Shown here piece after piece: positions 61-7,630 of a DNA stretch of 8,949 nt. The translations under genes were made by a program, and so were the position numbers. The DNA lies in NCBI GenBank assembly GCA_017860075.1, contig JAFNAH010000034.1:1-8949 (forward strand). The letters run 5' to 3'. Origin of the DNA: Acidobacteriota bacterium (GTDB lineage: Bacteria; Acidobacteriota; UBA6911). The number at the start of each line of letters is the position of its first letter. Position 1 is the first letter of the stretch. Below the pieces are notes generated by a model that had not been told where the DNA came from, did not search any database, and was given only the letters and a program-made list of their open reading frames with translations.

Positions 61-2010
61 CTACCTTGGCCGTCCCAACTGTTCCTTCGCTGCCGCAACA
101 ACATTTTGCTTGGTGAAACCGAATTCCTTCTGCAGCACTTTCAAGGGTGCGGAGGCCCCAAAGGTCTTCATACCGAGAATCGCGCCCTCCAGCCCCACAT
201 AATGAGCCCAGCCCCACGTGGACGCCTGCTCCACGGCGACGCGGGCTTTGACCGAAGGCGGCAGCACGCTGTCGCGGTATTCCTGACTCTGGCGTTCGAA
301 GATTTCCCAGGACGGCATGCTCACCACACGGGCCCCGATGCCCTCGGCCTTGAGCTGCTCGTAGGCCGCCACGCAGAGCGACACCTCGCTGCCCGTGGCC
401 AGGAGCAGCACGTGCGGCTTTCCGTTCGGGGCGTCGGCCAGCACGTAGGCGCCCTTGAACAGACCGGAGGCAGGGGCATATTTCGTACGATCGAGGGTGG
501 GCAGGGCCTGCCGTGACAGGATGAGCGCCGCCGGGGTGTGGCGCATCTGGAGAATGAACTTCCAGGCTTCGACCACTTCGGTCGCGTCGGCCGGCCGGAT
601 CACGGCGAGGTTCGGAATGGCCCGCAACGAAATCAGGTGCTCGATGGGTTGATGGGTCGGCCCGTCCTCGCCGACCCCGATGGAGTCGTGCGTGAAGATG
701 TGGATCACCGGGATCTCCATCAGCGCGCTCAGGCGAATCGAACAGCGGGCATAGTCATAGCTGTGAGCCTGGAAATCGCCCGCGCCCTCGAAACTGAGCC
801 GGGTTTTCGTGGACGGTGTCAGATCTACAGACCCCCCGATGAGCCATGGGACGTTCTTTGCGACCGCGTTCAGCACCTGGCCCGAAGACTCGCGCCCCCC
901 CAGGCCCTTCGGGTCCGGGGGAAAAACGGGCAGGTTCTTGTCCCAGCCCTCGGGCAGCTCCCGGCGCTGCATCTTTTCGACCTCATCCGCCAGCTCCGGA
1001 AATTGGCGCCTGTACTCCTTGAACGTGGACTCCCACGCTGTCCGCAGTTCGCGGCCCCGCTTTCCGATCCCTTGCTGGAAGTGTTCCCGCACGCCCTCGG
1101 GCACCAGGAACTTCGCATCCTCCGGCCAGCCGTAGCTGCGCTTCGTCAACGTCACCTCTTCTTCACCAAGCGGCTCGCCGTGAACCCCCGGAGTGCCCGC
1201 CTTGTGTGGGGAACCGTATCCGATGTGGCTGTCCACAATGATCAGCGTGGGCCGGTCCGTCGTTTTCCTGAAAATGCTCAGCGCCCGGTCCAGCCGATCG
1301 AGATCGTTGGCGTCGCCCACGCGCTCGACGTTCCAGCCATAGGACAGGAACCGCGACGCGATGTCGTCACGGAAGGCGATGTTCGTGTGGCCCTCGATGG
1401 TAATGCGGTTGCTGTCGTAGATCCAGCAGAGGTTGCTGAGCTCAAGGTGGCCGCCAAGGGAAGCGGCCTCGTTCGAGATGCCTTCCATCATGCAACCGTC
1501 GCCGCACAGGGCGTAAACATCGTAATCGAACAGGTCGAAGCCGGGCCGGTTGTATCGCGCGGCAAGCCATTTGGACGCGATCGCCATTCCCACGCTCATG
1601 GCAACGCCCTGGCCGAGGGGCCCTGTCGTACATTCCACCCCCGAGGTCCAGCGATATTCCGGATGGCCGGCGCACCGGCTGCCGAACTGGCGGAAGGTTT
1701 TAATGTCGTCGAGGGAAACGCACGGTTTGCCGACGACCTCGTAATCCGGGTCCACGGCCTTCACACCGGTGAGATGGAGGATCGAATAGAGGAGCATCGA
1801 TGCATGCCCGGCAGAGAGCACGAACCGGTCGCGATTGGGCCAGATGGGTTCCTCCGGGTCAAAGCGCAGAAAGTGCTGCCACAGACAATACACCACCGGG
1901 GCCATCCCCATCGGCGTGCCGGGGTGGCCGGAGTTGGCCTGCTGAATGGCATCGATGGAAAGGGTTCGAATGGTATTGATCGACAAATGGCTGACTTCCG
2001 TATCTGTCAT
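61..2010 (-). CDS. tkt: Transketolase with an internal in-frame deletion of the catalytic-glutamate block
   Basis: Transketolase moves two-carbon ketol units between sugar phosphates using thiamine diphosphate (TPP) and a divalent metal, in the cytosolic pentose-phosphate and Calvin pathways. The 649-residue product shows SGHPG (His29), GHAS (His69), GHPE (His116), the TPP motif GDG (170-172) with Asn201 thirty residues after Asp171, and HGEPLG (277-282). Further on are Arg373, Ser400, THDSIG (His441), Asp449, His453 and Arg500. These match E. coli TktA Arg358, Ser385, His461, Asp469, His473 and Arg520. The offset is +15 up to Ser400 and -20 from His441, so about 35 residues are missing between them. 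The join is at Ser417-Tyr418/Asp419-Tyr420. The lost block contains the 'RE' catalytic glutamate (E. coli Glu411) and the aromatic residues packing on the TPP pyrimidine. The start is the ATG at 2010, six bases after AAAAGGAG. The family is certain; activity is doubtful. It lies 101 bases downstream of glucose dehydrogenase. Confidence 0.95.
   Translation of the reverse strand: MTDTEVSHLSINTIRTLSIDAIQQANSGHPGTPMGMAPVVYCLWQHFLRFDPEEPIWPNRDRFVLSAGHASMLLYSILHLTGVKAVDPDYEVVGKPCVSLDDIKTFRQFGSRCAGHPEYRWTSGVECTTGPLGQGVAMSVGMAIASKWLAARYNRPGFDLFDYDVYALCGDGCMMEGISNEAASLGGHLELSNLCWIYDSNRITIEGHTNIAFRDDIASRFLSYGWNVERVGDANDLDRLDRALSIFRKTTDRPTLIIVDSHIGYGSPHKAGTPGVHGEPLGEEEVTLTKRSYGWPEDAKFLVPEGVREHFQQGIGKRGRELRTAWESTFKEYRRQFPELADEVEKMQRRELPEGWDKNLPVFPPDPKGLGGRESSGQVLNAVAKNVPWLIGGSVDLTPSTKTRLSFEGAGDFQAHSYDYARCSIRLSALMEIPVIHIFTHDSIGVGEDGPTHQPIEHLISLRAIPNLAVIRPADATEVVEAWKFILQMRHTPAALILSRQALPTLDRTKYAPASGLFKGAYVLADAPNGKPHVLLLATGSEVSLCVAAYEQLKAEGIGARVVSMPSWEIFERQSQEYRDSVLPPSVKARVAVEQASTWGWAHYVGLEGAILGMKTFGASAPLKVLQKEFGFTKQNVVAAAKEQLGRPR
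751..762 (-). other. Junction of the internal transketolase deletion
   Basis: On the minus strand the codons here read AGC TAT GAC TAT (Ser417-Tyr-Asp-Tyr420). In ordinary transketolases the sequence before this (GAGDF...SY) leads into a GRN.HFG.REH block. The sequence after it (DYAR..IRLSALM) normally follows an FL.FS strand. Here the two are joined directly. The junction carries CTATG twice, as CTATGACTATG, a short direct repeat of the sort left by slippage or microhomology-mediated deletion. The frame is kept on both sides. The absence is read directly by comparison with remembered family sequences; the mechanism is inference. An assembly error cannot be excluded from the sequence alone. 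Confidence 0.8.
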
Positions 2011-2111: not shown

Positions 2112-3161
2112 TCACCCTTCGGCGAACTGAATGACGACCTTGATGTCCTCCGATCGCCGCTCCAGGGCTTTCGTGAAGTCCTCCGGACGTTCGCGCCGCG
2201 TAATGAGACGAGCCAGCCACGATCGGTCCGCGCGAGCCAGGGCTTGAGCGGCCTTGTACCAGTGCCGTTTGTTGGCATTGACACTCCCCAACACAACGTT
2301 GTTTTTCAGCACCGCCGAAGACGCGACGTTCGCTGTGGCGATCTTGGGTACTGCGCCCCCATGCCCAACACCCGTAAGGCACACGACGCCACTTGCCCCG
2401 ATGACGGAGAGCGACTCGGAGATGATCTGCCCGACTCCGGTGCATTCCATGATGACGTCCGGCTCGAACCCCACGTCTGCGACGCTGCAGGAGTGGTAGG
2501 TTGCGCCGAGAGCGCGCACGAGTTCGGGCTTGGGCCCCGACGTGGTCCGAGCGAGGACGTGGACCTCCGCCGCTCGCTGCGCAGCTCCCAGGGCGGCCAG
2601 GAGGCCGATCGGTCCCGCACCCGTCACGAGTACAACCTTCGGCTCCCAAAAGGCCCTCTGGCCCACCGCAAGGATATGCTCCCATGCCTTCGTGACAACC
2701 GTCGCGGGCTCCAGCAGCACTCCGAGGAACCCCAGCGTCGGGTCGATCTTCATCGCGTACTCGGGCTCGATCCTCCACCTTTCGGACATGAAGCCGTCTA
2801 TCTCTTTGATGCCCCGCTCGGTGTACTGGCCGTTGCGGCACATGTCCCACTCGCCCACTGCGCAGTTCGGGCACGGAACCGGGTCAGGCCGGCGAACGAT
2901 GCCCACCACCAAATCACCCTTCTTCAATCCGCTTGTTGGACCCGGATCGAGCACGCGGCCAAGGGATTCATGACCCAGCACGAGACGTGTCTTGCCCGGA
3001 GGCGCCCAGCCGTACTTGCCCTCTGCAATCTCAACGTCGGTCCCGCATACTCCGACGGCGATGCTTTCCACCAGAACCGAACCGTTGCGGATGTCAGGTT
3101 CCGGAATATCTTCAAAACATGCGGACCCGGGTTTCTTTGGTTCAACTGTGATCGCTTTCAT
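2112..3161 (-). CDS. gdh: Zinc-dependent glucose (aldose) 1-dehydrogenase, MDR family
   Basis: A medium-chain zinc dehydrogenase of 349 residues, most like the archaeal/bacterial glucose 1-dehydrogenase group (Sulfolobus type). That group oxidises glucose, and often galactose, to the 1,5-lactone with NAD(P)+, the first step of non- or semi-phosphorylative Entner-Doudoroff pathways. Visible are GVCGTD (Cys39, Thr41), LGHE (His64-Glu65) and LLEP (Glu151) as the catalytic zinc site. A structural lobe has Cys97, Cys100 and Cys108. The Rossmann motif GAGPIG is at 181-186, followed by Arg205, which may favour NADP. VNANKRHW at 294-301 corresponds to the family's substrate-loop asparagine region, and the C-terminus (DIKVVIQF) is typical. 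The lobe has three cysteines where Sulfolobus has four: Pro94 replaces the first, with Asp93 beside it, which I recall from other bacterial members. The start is the ATG at 3161, eight bases after GAGGAGGT. Substrate breadth cannot be read; glucose is the best guess. Confidence 0.88.
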   Translation of the reverse strand: MKAITVEPKKPGSACFEDIPEPDIRNGSVLVESIAVGVCGTDVEIAEGKYGWAPPGKTRLVLGHESLGRVLDPGPTSGLKKGDLVVGIVRRPDPVPCPNCAVGEWDMCRNGQYTERGIKEIDGFMSERWRIEPEYAMKIDPTLGFLGVLLEPATVVTKAWEHILAVGQRAFWEPKVVLVTGAGPIGLLAALGAAQRAAEVHVLARTTSGPKPELVRALGATYHSCSVADVGFEPDVIMECTGVGQIISESLSVIGASGVVCLTGVGHGGAVPKIATANVASSAVLKNNVVLGSVNANKRHWYKAAQALARADRSWLARLITRRERPEDFTKALERRSEDIKVVIQFAEG

Positions 3162-3307: not shown

Positions 3308-3946
3308 TCACAGAGCTTCCCGCACGAGCGCCCGGGCTGGACCGCCGTCTCCTCCGGCAATCTTGAGAGGCAGGCAGACCAGCTGCACTCGACCCGGTCG
3401 GACCCGTTTCAGGTTAAGCCCCTCAATGATCCAGATGCCGGCCTTGAGCAGGGCCTGGTGGCTTTCCACTCCATCCGCGCGGAAACCGCCGACGGAGAGG
3501 TAGTCTGCTCCAACCAGCCGTACCTGCCGCTCAGCGAGGTACCGGGCCGCTGCTGCCGAAAGGTACACGAAGTCCTCGACAAAGCGGTCGGTATCCCAGC
3601 AGTGATCTGAGTTGTGGGTCTTAAACAGGACCCGCTCGCCGCGCCGGATAGCGTGCCGTGCGAGCTCGTCGGGCTTGATGGACTTGCGGTCACGGATAAG
3701 AATCACCCGCGCCGAACCGATGGCTGCGTCCAGCGGCATGTCGTCAATCCCGATGCCGCCGCGGACAAAGTGCGCGGGCGCATCCATGTGGGTGCCTGTA
3801 TGTGCGCCCATCTCAAGGAGCGACACCGTGCACGGGTCACCCCGCTCCATGTCCGAGGCGTGGCTGATACGGGCGGGCGGATCTCCCGGCCAGCTCACCA
3901 TGCCGGTTCTTAGCGTTACCGAAACGTCGATCCAGGGTGAAGCCAT
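3308..3946 (-). CDS. Cyclase family / KynB-like metal-dependent hydrolase
   Basis: A 212-residue cytosolic protein of the cyclase superfamily (PF04199), which includes bacterial kynurenine formamidase (KynB) and other metal-dependent amidases and lactone or amide hydrolases. The signature HTGTHMDAPAHF gives His49, His53, Asp55 and His59; ESHQ gives His163 and IIEGL gives Glu175. These match, with the same spacing, the zinc ligands of Bacillus KynB (His51, His55, Asp57, His61, His160, Glu172 as I recall them). SWPGD (18-22), GADYLSVGG (146-154) and PLKIAGGDG (193-201) are other family blocks. The start is the ATG at 3946, six bases after AAAGGAG. An upstream in-frame ATG at 3964 would translate the Shine-Dalgarno sequence itself (MGKE) and is rejected. 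No tryptophan-degradation gene is nearby, so kynurenine is unlikely to be its substrate. Its place between a glucosidase and a glucose dehydrogenase makes a sugar lactone conceivable, but that is speculation. Confidence 0.88.
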   Translation of the reverse strand: MASPWIDVSVTLRTGMVSWPGDPPARISHASDMERGDPCTVSLLEMGAHTGTHMDAPAHFVRGGIGIDDMPLDAAIGSARVILIRDRKSIKPDELARHAIRRGERVLFKTHNSDHCWDTDRFVEDFVYLSAAAARYLAERQVRLVGADYLSVGGFRADGVESHQALLKAGIWIIEGLNLKRVRPGRVQLVCLPLKIAGGDGGPARALVREAL

Positions 3947-3952
3947 GATATT

Positions 3953-3959
3953 CTCCTTT
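3953..3959 (-). promoter_or_regulatory. Shine-Dalgarno sequence deciding the cyclase start
   Basis: AAAGGAG on the minus strand lies six bases before the ATG at 3946. It sits just inside the longer open frame that begins with an ATG at 3964, so the longer start would have to be read without this site. The shorter start is clearly better. Confidence 0.85.
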
Positions 3960-3981
3960 CCCATTCCTCATGCGACCGTGA

Positions 3982-6723
3982 TCACCTTCGTTTTGTGACC
4001 TTCTGTTTGGGTAATTTGGGTGCGTCCCACTCCCGGACGAAAGACGCCTGCTTCCCCGCCTTGAGAAGTTGCGCGCCATCGAAGCTCCTGAAGAGCTCGA
4101 TGAGTGTCGCCACACCGCCGGACCAGCCCGTCTGGTGGCTTGCGCCGATCCCGGCCCCGTTGTCTCCGTGGAAGTACTCATAGAAAAGGATGTGGTCACG
4201 CCAGTGGGGGTCGGTCTGGAACTTTTCCAGGCCCCCGTAAACCGGCCTGCGTCCGCTCCCGTCCTGGAGGAAGATACTGATGAGACGATTGGCAATCTCC
4301 CGGGCGACTTCAAAGAGGTTCATCTCCCGGCCGGAGCCGGTCGGGCATTCCACCTTGAAGGAATCGCCGTAGAATACGTAGAAGCCGAGGAGCGCCCGGA
4401 TGAGAAGCATGTTGACGGGCATCCAGACCGGGCCGCGCCAGTTCGAGTTTCCACCGAACATCCCCGAGTCGGAATCGGCGGGCAGGTAGTTCACACGATA
4501 TTCCCTGCCCCCGGCATTAAACACATAGGGATGTTCAAGATGATAGCGCGAAAGCGCCCGGATCCCGTGTGGACTCAGGAACTCGTTCTCGTCGAGCATA
4601 CGCGCGAGGATGCGATGCAGCCGGTCCGACCCGACCAGCGCCATCAAGCCTCGGTCGGCGTAGCCCCGTCCCGTATAAAAGTCCGTCAGCAGCTCCGGCA
4701 TGCGGCGTCTACGCTCCTCGAACAGCTTCTTCACACCCGGCACCCGCTTCCGCTGCCAGGGTTCCATCAGGCTTGTCGCGCAGAGCGGCATGAGGCCCAC
4801 CATTGAGCGCACCTTGAGGCGCACCGAGGAACCGTCAGGAAGCCGCAGAACGTCATAGAAGAAGCCGTCCTCCTCGTCCCACATGCCGTCAGGTCCAACA
4901 TGATTGACGGCGTGGGCGATCCAGAGGACATGGTCGAGAAACTTGGCGGCGAGGTTTTCGTAGCTCGGGTCGTAAGCGGCGATCTCGATGGCCAGCTCCA
5001 ACATGTTCTGGCTAAAAAATGCCATCCAGGCGGTACCGTCTGCCTGCTCAATATAGCCTCCCGTCGGCAACGGAGCGGATCGATCGAAAACCCCGATATT
5101 ATCGAGGCCGAGGAAACCGCCCTCGAAGACGTTCTTTCCAAACCGGTCTTTGCGGTTCACCCACCACGTGAAATTGCCCAGGAGCTTTCCGAAGGAGCGT
5201 TTAAGAAACGCGAGGTCACCCTTCCCGCGCTTGACCTCCTCCGTCCGGAACAGGGCAAGCGTGGCCCAGGCGTGAACGGGGGGATTGACGTCACTGAAAT
5301 TCCACTCGTAGGCCGGGATCTGGCCGTTCGGATGGAGGTACATCTGGTCGAGCATCAGATCGAGTTGCTGTTTCGCGAAGTCGATATCCACCTCGGAGAG
5401 CACGATCGTGTGAAAGGCGAGGTCCCACGCCGCGTACCATGGGTATTCCCACTTGTCGGGCATCGAGATGATGTCGTCATTGACCATGTGTCCCCACTCG
5501 CGGTTCCGCGTGGGGCCGGCCGAACTGGAGAAGGGGTCGCCGCCGTGTTCCTTGATCCACTTGTCGGCCTCAAACAGGTAGTACTGCTTCGACCACAGCA
5601 TTCCCGCCATGGCCTGACGTATCACCCGGGCTTCGTCTTCAGTCGCCGAAGAGGGGGTCATCGCGCGATAAAACTCGTCCGCTTCGCTGCGGCGCTCATC
5701 GAACGTCTTGCCAAACCCGGCGAACAGATCCTTCGAGTCTCCGGGATCGTAGTCGGTGAGCCGCAAGCGTACCATCGCCGTCCCTCCTGCCTTCACCTTC
5801 AGCGTGTGGTGCGCAGCCACCTTGGTGCCGGTGCAAGCCGGGTTCACCGCCTCCTTTCGCCCGAGGACCACATAATCGTTGATGCCGTCCTTAACGTGGG
5901 CGCCGGCATTCGCCGTGCCAAAAACCCGTTGGTTGTTGGTCTCGTTTTCGGTAAAGAGGAGAGGCACGTCCCCGTCCACACACAACCATCGCTCACCGAG
6001 CTCGGCGTGAGAGGCTGCGACCGTCCGCATGCCCTTCCGTGCCTTGACCTGACGCAGCGCAGGCTTCGACACTTCAGGCGACCACGTCCACACATTGCGA
6101 AACCAGAGGGTGGGCAGGAGGTGTAACGTCGCCGCCTCCGGTCCCCGGTTTTCTACCGTAATAAGGATGAGTATATCCTCGGGGGAGGCCTTGGCGTACT
6201 CGACAAAGACATCGAAATACTGGTTGTCTGCGAAGACGCCGGTGTCGAGGAGCTCGTACTCCAGCTCCAGGCGCGAGCGACGGCGATTGGTCTCCACGAG
6301 ATCCGCATAGGGATAGGCCCGTTGCGGGTACTTGTAGAGCCATTTCATGTAGGAGTGCGTAGGCGTGGAGTCGAGGTAGAAGTAGTACTCTTTCACGTCC
6401 TCGCCATGGTTGCCTTCGCCGCCCGTCAGACCAAAGAGGCGTTCCTTGAGGATTGGGTCTTGACCGTTCCACAGGGCAAGGGCAAAACAAAGTCGCTGCT
6501 TCTCGTCGGAGAAACCGGCCAGCCCGTCTTCACCCGAACGGTACGCGCGGGAGCGGGACTGGTCGTGGCTGACGTAGTTCCAGGCGTCGCCGTTTTTGCT
6601 GTAATCTTCGCGGACCGTGCCCCACTGTCGCTCGCTCAGATAAGGGCCCCACTTTCGCCACGGCGCGCCCTTCCCGGCCTCGGCCAGGCGTCTTTGCTCC
6701 GCATTCATTTCGGTCTTTGTCAC
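3982..6723 (-). CDS. GH63/MGH1-type glucosidase
   Basis: A 913-residue glycoside hydrolase of the bacterial/archaeal 'glucosidase' group related to GH63 and mannosylglycerate hydrolases (MGH1). Members hydrolyse alpha-linked gluco- or mannosyl-glycosides with inversion. There is no signal peptide, so it should act in the cytosol. Residues 1-330 form a beta-rich N-terminal domain beginning with EQRRLAEAG and PWRKWGPYLSERQWG. From about 360 an (alpha/alpha)6 barrel follows. GLDNIG (539-544) carries the likely general acid Asp541, matching the GxDNS motif of GH63. YEYFHGDNGAG (848-858) carries the likely base Glu849, followed by HQTGWSG. NWRGPVWMPVN (761-771) is another family hallmark. Length is normal. 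The start is the GTG at 6723, six bases after AAGGAGG. A GTG at 6783 would overlap the transporter gene and lacks such a site. It starts 28 bases after the transporter and ends 35 bases before the cyclase. The exact substrate is unknown. Confidence 0.88.
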   Translation of the reverse strand: MTKTEMNAEQRRLAEAGKGAPWRKWGPYLSERQWGTVREDYSKNGDAWNYVSHDQSRSRAYRSGEDGLAGFSDEKQRLCFALALWNGQDPILKERLFGLTGGEGNHGEDVKEYYFYLDSTPTHSYMKWLYKYPQRAYPYADLVETNRRRSRLELEYELLDTGVFADNQYFDVFVEYAKASPEDILILITVENRGPEAATLHLLPTLWFRNVWTWSPEVSKPALRQVKARKGMRTVAASHAELGERWLCVDGDVPLLFTENETNNQRVFGTANAGAHVKDGINDYVVLGRKEAVNPACTGTKVAAHHTLKVKAGGTAMVRLRLTDYDPGDSKDLFAGFGKTFDERRSEADEFYRAMTPSSATEDEARVIRQAMAGMLWSKQYYLFEADKWIKEHGGDPFSSSAGPTRNREWGHMVNDDIISMPDKWEYPWYAAWDLAFHTIVLSEVDIDFAKQQLDLMLDQMYLHPNGQIPAYEWNFSDVNPPVHAWATLALFRTEEVKRGKGDLAFLKRSFGKLLGNFTWWVNRKDRFGKNVFEGGFLGLDNIGVFDRSAPLPTGGYIEQADGTAWMAFFSQNMLELAIEIAAYDPSYENLAAKFLDHVLWIAHAVNHVGPDGMWDEEDGFFYDVLRLPDGSSVRLKVRSMVGLMPLCATSLMEPWQRKRVPGVKKLFEERRRRMPELLTDFYTGRGYADRGLMALVGSDRLHRILARMLDENEFLSPHGIRALSRYHLEHPYVFNAGGREYRVNYLPADSDSGMFGGNSNWRGPVWMPVNMLLIRALLGFYVFYGDSFKVECPTGSGREMNLFEVAREIANRLISIFLQDGSGRRPVYGGLEKFQTDPHWRDHILFYEYFHGDNGAGIGASHQTGWSGGVATLIELFRSFDGAQLLKAGKQASFVREWDAPKLPKQKVTKRR

Positions 6724-6729
6724 CTTAAG

Positions 6730-6736
6730 CCTCCTT
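6730..6736 (-). promoter_or_regulatory. Shine-Dalgarno sequence deciding the glucosidase GTG start
   Basis: AAGGAGG on the minus strand ends six bases before the GTG at 6723 and lies wholly in the 28-base gap after the transporter stop codon. This favours the GTG start over the longer frame that begins at 6783 inside the transporter gene. Confidence 0.85.
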
Positions 6737-6751
6737 TGTCGTCCCCCCCAT

Positions 6752-7630
6752 TCATTCAGCGGCCGGCGCTGCTCCCGGATCACCTATCGGAGCGCGGCGC
6801 GCAAACCAACGCGCCGCGAGCAACGAAAAGATCGTTTGCATGGGAACCCCGAGCGCAACCATGACGATTGCGCGTTGATCAACATCAGCAATGGCAAACA
6901 GCGGCGCGAACGCAGCCCCGAGATTGCGCGTCGACATTCCGAGTGCCAGGACGCTCTTTTGAGGCTGGGGCAGGCCAAAGCTGAGCCCATACGAGGCGGC
7001 AGTCGCCACTGAAAAAAACAGAATCTGTGCCCCGATCGCATAGGTCCCTACCGCACCGATAAATCCTTTGCCGTAAACAACCACGCAGAGTACAAGCATC
7101 ACAAGGGTGGCGATCCCTGTCGTTTTCTTGACGATGGGCTGGAGTCCGGCAGCGACAGGGGCTGAGGCGCGCTGTATCGCCATCCCGATCGCCAGGGGCA
7201 CCATCAAGAAGAACAGGAGTGGCCTCGCGATGGTCCAGGCATCGGCGGTCAGACCCTTGACGATCACCGGGACCGCCAAGGGCATGTAAATCACCGTGAC
7301 CACGGAGGCCAGCAGCATGAAGGCCGCTGCGTAAGCCAAGTCCCCGCGCGCCTTGTCCACCATCATCGGCAGAAACGGCGCACAGGGCGTCATTCCCAGC
7401 AAAACCAAGCCGATGGCATAGGGTTGCTCCAGCGGGATGACCTTTGTGAGCAAGTAAGCCAGGGCCGGGCACAGGACAAAACCCCACAGCCCACTCAGGA
7501 CCACGAAGCGCACATTTCGCAGCCCCCCAAGGGCTTCCCGGAGCTTGAGCCTGAGACCCATATCCAGCAGGTTGCCCACCATAAACATTACGAGGGATAT
7601 CTTTAGCAGGATTTGAAGTATCTCAGGCAC
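6752..7630 (-). CDS. BASS-family (bile acid:sodium symporter-like) transporter
   Basis: A 292-residue, very hydrophobic inner-membrane protein with about eight to nine predicted helices, of the SBF/BASS superfamily. Members carry organic anions, usually with sodium. Motifs are GNLLDMGLRL (19-28), GMTPCAPFLPMM (79-90), matching the first crossover region, and MSTRNLGAAF (232-241), matching the second. These regions hold the unwound helices and sodium sites in solved members. The start is a GTG at 7630, six bases after GGAGG. It is followed after 28 bases by the glucosidase, with the glucosidase's Shine-Dalgarno sequence in the gap, so the two are almost certainly co-transcribed. Possible cargo is a sugar acid or another organic anion linked to the downstream enzymes, but the sequence does not say. 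The C-terminal tail (PGAAPAAE) is short and of low complexity. Length is near the lower end for the family. Confidence 0.85.
   Translation of the reverse strand: MPEILQILLKISLVMFMVGNLLDMGLRLKLREALGGLRNVRFVVLSGLWGFVLCPALAYLLTKVIPLEQPYAIGLVLLGMTPCAPFLPMMVDKARGDLAYAAAFMLLASVVTVIYMPLAVPVIVKGLTADAWTIARPLLFFLMVPLAIGMAIQRASAPVAAGLQPIVKKTTGIATLVMLVLCVVVYGKGFIGAVGTYAIGAQILFFSVATAASYGLSFGLPQPQKSVLALGMSTRNLGAAFAPLFAIADVDQRAIVMVALGVPMQTIFSLLAARWFARRAPIGDPGAAPAAE

Follow-up and report, generated by a model that had tools for sequence, protein, structure and literature searches.

Gene run and the transketolase gene as written

The stretch of DNA that was analysed (the window) is a whole contig, C267, of 8,949 bp, within a draft of 632 contigs and 3.06 Mb that is 84.4% complete, with about 16% of the genome missing. 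The transketolase gene (tkt) is the last gene of a run in which it is preceded by a glycoside hydrolase, a cyclase-like hydrolase and a glucose-dehydrogenase-like gene (Table 1). The contig ends 60 bases beyond the tkt stop, and no contig but the window itself was found to overlap its first 160 bases. In one relative (L025) the glucose dehydrogenase and tkt genes follow the same order, separated by one gene, and the run continues there from hydrolase, dehydrogenase and tkt to genes for DUF1254, 6-phosphogluconate dehydrogenase, glucose-6-phosphate dehydrogenase and transaldolase. In the bin of the window the last three lie on another contig, C131 (gnd-zwf-tal).

Table 1. Positions of the features within the window
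Feature	Position	Strand	Remark
tkt, operon-type transketolase	61..2010	minus	649 aa, without 37 residues of the pyrimidine-binding domain
Junction of the missing 111 nt, codons 418/419	756..757	minus	At most 1 nt of flank homology, judged on the close relative L025
GVREH look-alike of the catalytic motif, residues 306-310	1081..1095	minus	Different site; same residues in the intact protein P0001
Glucose-dehydrogenase-like gene, upstream of tkt	2112..3161	minus	Gene order shared with L025
89-base segment with an identical copy at the start of contig C131	2888..2976	minus	Fused there to the gnd leader
Cyclase / arylformamidase-like gene, same gene run	3308..3964	minus	TIGR03035 146.8 bits, below the cut-off of 223.05
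MGH1-like glycoside hydrolase gene, same gene run	3982..6783	minus	–

At the junction within tkt, codon 418 (TAT, 757-759) is directly followed by codon 419 (GAC, 754-756), and the reading frame remains open to either side of the join. By aligning the protein to E. coli K-12 TktA we observed that Gly402-Val438, a segment including Glu411, Ile417, Phe434 and Phe437, has no counterpart. R373 and S400 correspond to TktA Arg358 and Ser385 (offset +15), while H441, D449, H453 and R500 correspond to His461, Asp469, His473 and Arg520 (offset -20). These are exactly the offsets given in a preliminary description of this DNA, and its claim of a clean in-frame loss of the block with the catalytic glutamate at residues 418/419 is borne out by the alignment and the open frame. 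It had put the loss at about 35 residues; compared to its own subfamily, which is two residues longer here than the E. coli enzyme, the gap measures 37 residues or 111 nt. Both the catalytic glutamate (TktA Glu411) and the aromatic residues on the TPP pyrimidine (TktA Phe434 and Phe437) are absent. Tyr440 is retained as Y420, the pyrophosphate-site residues His66, Asp155, Gly156, Asn185 and His261 are present as H69, D171, G172, N201 and H277, and the substrate residues checked in the alignment are retained as well. The Pfam domains Transketolase_N, Transket_pyr and the C-terminal domain were found in order; the N-terminal pyrophosphate domain is matched in one stretch (profile positions 4-334 of 334) and the Transket_pyr match is limited to positions 86-173 of 174. 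Against TIGR00232 the protein scores 751.8 bits (cut-off 682.25), compared to 814.6 bits for P0001, an intact and nearly identical protein. When P0001 was compared with the genome, its residues 1-418 were located at 757-2010 and residues 456-686 at 64-756, with nothing for the residues between.

Misalignment as the source of the gap is ruled out by the TktA alignment and by the loci of relatives, which carry the block. When the window was searched for the motif in all six frames, GVREH at residues 306-310 was the sole match. An Arg-Glu motif elsewhere in the protein had been named in the preliminary description as the observation that would speak against the loss; however, P0001 has GVREH at the same place in addition to the true motif, which rules out that the catalytic motif has moved there. 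Slippage between direct repeats is ruled out by the homology at the junction, which amounts to 1 nt as judged on the relative L025. Outside the gap P0001 differs from the protein at three residues, in agreement with the young event that had been suggested. No further stops, frameshifts or excess substitutions were seen in the 649-aa frame with its three substitutions, and the branch leading to it is 0.0016 long in a tree of 33 rows. Nothing points to decay or to new selection.

In published descriptions Glu411 bonds N1 of the TPP pyrimidine, Phe437 stacks on the ring and Phe434 is a pyrimidine contact (PMC4601599), and the PYR domain of thiamine enzymes carries a conserved catalytic glutamate (PMC2831816). 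Judged from its residues, the protein as written is predicted to be inactive and unable to activate thiamine diphosphate, and most likely it does nothing catalytic; the inactivity proposed earlier is therefore likely, as the block with the catalytic glutamate is gone. The accompanying proposal that TPP binding may be retained is not favoured by our comparison, since the N1-bonding glutamate and the ring-stacking phenylalanine are both gone and the closest engineered analogue, human TKT delta38, is folded and inactive and binds no cofactor (PMC3485151). AlphaFold2 models of the gapped protein had pLDDT values below 50 at residues 391-434 and 441-458, and the intact P0001 control was also poor in the Pyr domain (below 50 at 392-433, 438-472 and 478-501).

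The block in relatives and the search for another transketolase

We compared 104 loci, 102 of which span the site. With the window itself (L003 and L005) and another thiamine enzyme (L004) left out, the block occurs in each of the other transketolase loci (99 of 99), among which one gene is represented twice (L006 and L025). Arg-Glu is read in 98 of them and Leu-Glu in L041, a relative's transketolase that has Leu-Glu-His at this place. The motif [FYW]G-x-[RL]E was found in all 186 homologous proteins retrieved; these are 90%-identity cluster representatives among the matches listed (the best 120 of 8,000 and the best 120 of 7,870), and because only representatives were compared, a gapped member could hide inside the nine-member P0001 cluster. 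The comparison of close relatives proposed in the preliminary description thus yielded no second case, as none of the relatives examined has the gap. Searches of open-licence literature for transketolases without their glutamate or with an internal deletion gave no account of such a gap. A gap in the window sequence alone, while a nearly identical intact gene exists, speaks for an error in the draft.

A second tkt with an intact Arg-Glu motif, which had also been suggested as a check, was not found: the searches of the 84%-complete draft revealed no other full-length transketolase. In the same draft a protein search did not find a second copy of the block, and a degenerate-pattern search of the genome gave no exact and 16 one-mismatch matches. 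PF00456 matches in the bin are confined to the window, C158 and C547, the last of which is aceE. A split transketolase in the bin is ruled out, as the PF02779 match on C22 belongs to the E1 component of 2-oxoglutarate dehydrogenase and the PF00456 match on C547 to aceE. The relative G019 and the genome G003 each have a second tkt, distant from the first. In the tree of 33 rows the operon-type tkt stands apart from a clade formed by six same-family genomes and the second copy of G019. The sole genome of the same genus, G001, showed no close tkt match and gave weaker hits in two adjacent pieces (L131, on its contig C296) that look like a split transketolase.

Local defects elsewhere in the draft

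The 2-oxoglutarate dehydrogenase E1 gene on C22 matches NF006914 in two separate frames, at positions 82-574 and at 624-916, on DNA stretches that adjoin directly. At about 1474-1495 of this locus (L001) some 49 conserved profile positions are lost without intervening DNA and the reading frame is disrupted, so that the loss looks like an error and not like a trait. Of the bin's four PF02779 genes, the one on C22 and the one in the window each have a clean hole in the same domain, an odd coincidence that we took for chance. That the organism has lost Pyr blocks in general is ruled out by aceE on C547, which has a related domain and aligns whole. On C131 (L156), bases 1-89 are identical to positions 2976-2888 of the window and are followed by an abrupt jump to the gnd leader; in L025 the counterparts of the two joined places are about 5.4 kb apart. 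The start of C131 is a second deletion-like junction in the operon of the window tkt.

Adjacent perfect duplications were searched for in 131 usable contigs together with the window (719,602 bases, 23.5% of the draft), nine further contigs that read as N being left out. We found three, with units of 30 bp (L140:465-524), 71 bp (L162:4806-4947) and 50 bp (L241:1423-1522), as well as one 64-bp pair 3 bases apart (L238:6659-6789). Neither the 71-bp nor the 50-bp unit is divisible by three; both lie inside open frames and shift the frame. No adjacent duplication with a unit of at least 30 bp was seen in 87 loci of relatives (1,005,354 bases), two of which have adjacent repeats of 18- and 19-bp units, in a comparison that was made post hoc and for which the relatives are no matched control. 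The last 50 bases of contig ends recur elsewhere in the sample for 9 of 260 ends; six of these make up three ordinary end overlaps (99, 99 and 78 bases) and three, including that of C131, are of another kind. Besides that of C131, two contig ends (L143, right end; L240, about 242; L176, 1-67) have their last 50 bases recurring inside another or the same contig. The first 79 sequences checked were free of Ns. Of 40 long frames drawn at random, 17 matched a family at E <= 1e-60, and each of these aligned in one stretch, in a sample of long closed frames whose choice hides frame breaks. A deletion scan against the proteins of relatives revealed no other deletion in nine testable regions. For metagenome bins, PMC7111523 (section 9) describes both scaffold joins at which the overlap is present twice and errors of local extent within genes.

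Origin of the gap and comparison with known systems

We consider it probable that the gap in tkt is a local assembly error, in which a join dropped a short stretch, and that in the living bacterium the transketolase would be intact and ordinary. A stretch of tkt may have been poorly covered by reads, and the two pieces flanking it may have been joined without Ns and with the loss of 111 bases, in which case the in-frame length of the loss would be a one-in-three coincidence. A join over an uncovered stretch that leaves a clean loss would, we infer, be an extension of the published error types (PMC7111523). This origin is supported by the intact block in 99 of 99 loci and 186 of 186 proteins together with the three other differences from P0001, and also by the E1 loss on C22, the fusion on C131 and the duplications, which favour the artefact among the three options offered in the preliminary description. 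The end of the contig so soon after the tkt stop was likewise counted for it, and the lack of a repeat at the gap ends is as expected for a dropped stretch. The same junction can however be argued the other way, as by reasoning a k-mer assembler would need at least one junction read where there is no repeat, unless a scaffolding join was made, and the sequences checked without Ns weigh against such a join. Also counting against an assembly error are the in-frame loss with the rest of the protein unharmed, and the 17 unbroken frames and nine regions without a deletion, which indicate that defects are not everywhere in the draft.

The main rival, which we regard as unlikely on balance, is a real and very young null allele, in which an in-frame deletion of 111 bp removed the pyrimidine-binding core while the cell likely uses another transketolase in the unassembled part. 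It would fit the in-frame loss, the open frame and the missing repeat at the junction, and with about 16% of the genome absent from the draft there is room for a second gene. The copy could be dispensable, given the separate operon-type clade, the second distant tkt in G019 and G003 and the second type in six same-family genomes; yet no further tkt turned up in the assembled part, an intact and nearly identical P0001 exists, and similar local defects occur in unrelated genes of the draft. It is rather improbable that the contig was misbinned and the gapped gene stems from a different organism, whose other transketolase would lie outside the genome searched. The 4-mer profile of the window is indeed closest to the G019 operon (0.896, with a mean of 0.772 against 18 contigs of its own bin), and G001, from the same genus, lacks a close tkt match, but the GC content of the window (0.610) is within the range of the bin (0.594-0.624), C131 with the remainder of the operon belongs to this bin too, and misbinning would leave the gap itself unexplained.

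The repurposed paralogue also suggested in the preliminary description found no supporting evidence, none of the relatives examined having the gap, and we hold it to be very improbable. Such a non-catalytic protein would regulate the pathway by binding sugar phosphates or by pairing with an intact subunit, as proposed for human TKTL1; in its favour the checked pyrophosphate-site and substrate residues are retained and TKTL1-TKT heterodimers are described from human cells (PMC6555833). Against it, the assembled genome offers no intact partner and the lineage of the window shows no extra change (branch 0.0016). The lost block, which from known structures we take to be core strands and one helix of the domain, counts against such a protein as well. 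We would give next to no credence to the still more specific idea of a newborn bacterial counterpart of TKTL1, in which the 111-bp in-frame deletion created a glutamate-free transketolase-like protein unable to activate thiamine, which tunes its own pentose phosphate operon by binding sugar phosphates or pairing with an intact subunit.

Taken together, we prefer the assembly error; the living organism probably does not have the gap, which as a finding is probably ordinary. A protein without its catalytic residue nevertheless passes a curated equivalog cut-off and would be annotated as a working transketolase, and other defects in the same bin can help to weigh such a gap without reads. Should the gap be real, bacteria would offer a natural parallel to TKTL1.

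Compared to the TktA-type bacterial transketolases (TIGR00232), the protein agrees in domain order, pyrophosphate-site and substrate residues and a score above the cut-off, but differs by lacking the equivalents of Glu411, Ile417, Phe434 and Phe437 within the 37 missing Pyr-domain residues. In human TKTL1 and TKT delta38 one block of similar length (38 residues) is likewise described as absent from the cofactor site, although there it is residues 76-113 of the pyrophosphate domain that are lost and here a part of the pyrimidine domain (PMC3485151); a TKTL1-like loss of 38 residues was not seen in the N-terminal pyrophosphate domain of the window protein. TKTL1 is moreover an established gene, whereas the present gap is known from one draft sequence, and the analogy is open to dispute, since one modelling study (PMC6334435) makes a case for TKTL1 being potentially active. 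Glyoxylate carboligase is described as a thiamine enzyme without the catalytic glutamate, so that loss of this residue alone need not end thiamine chemistry; there, however, glutamate is replaced by valine and the fold is kept, while in tkt the whole surrounding block is gone (PMC3534367). The local errors described for metagenome bins resemble what we observed elsewhere in this bin, namely gene-altering errors and duplicated joins, although section 9 of that account describes no clean 111-nt loss as such (PMC7111523).
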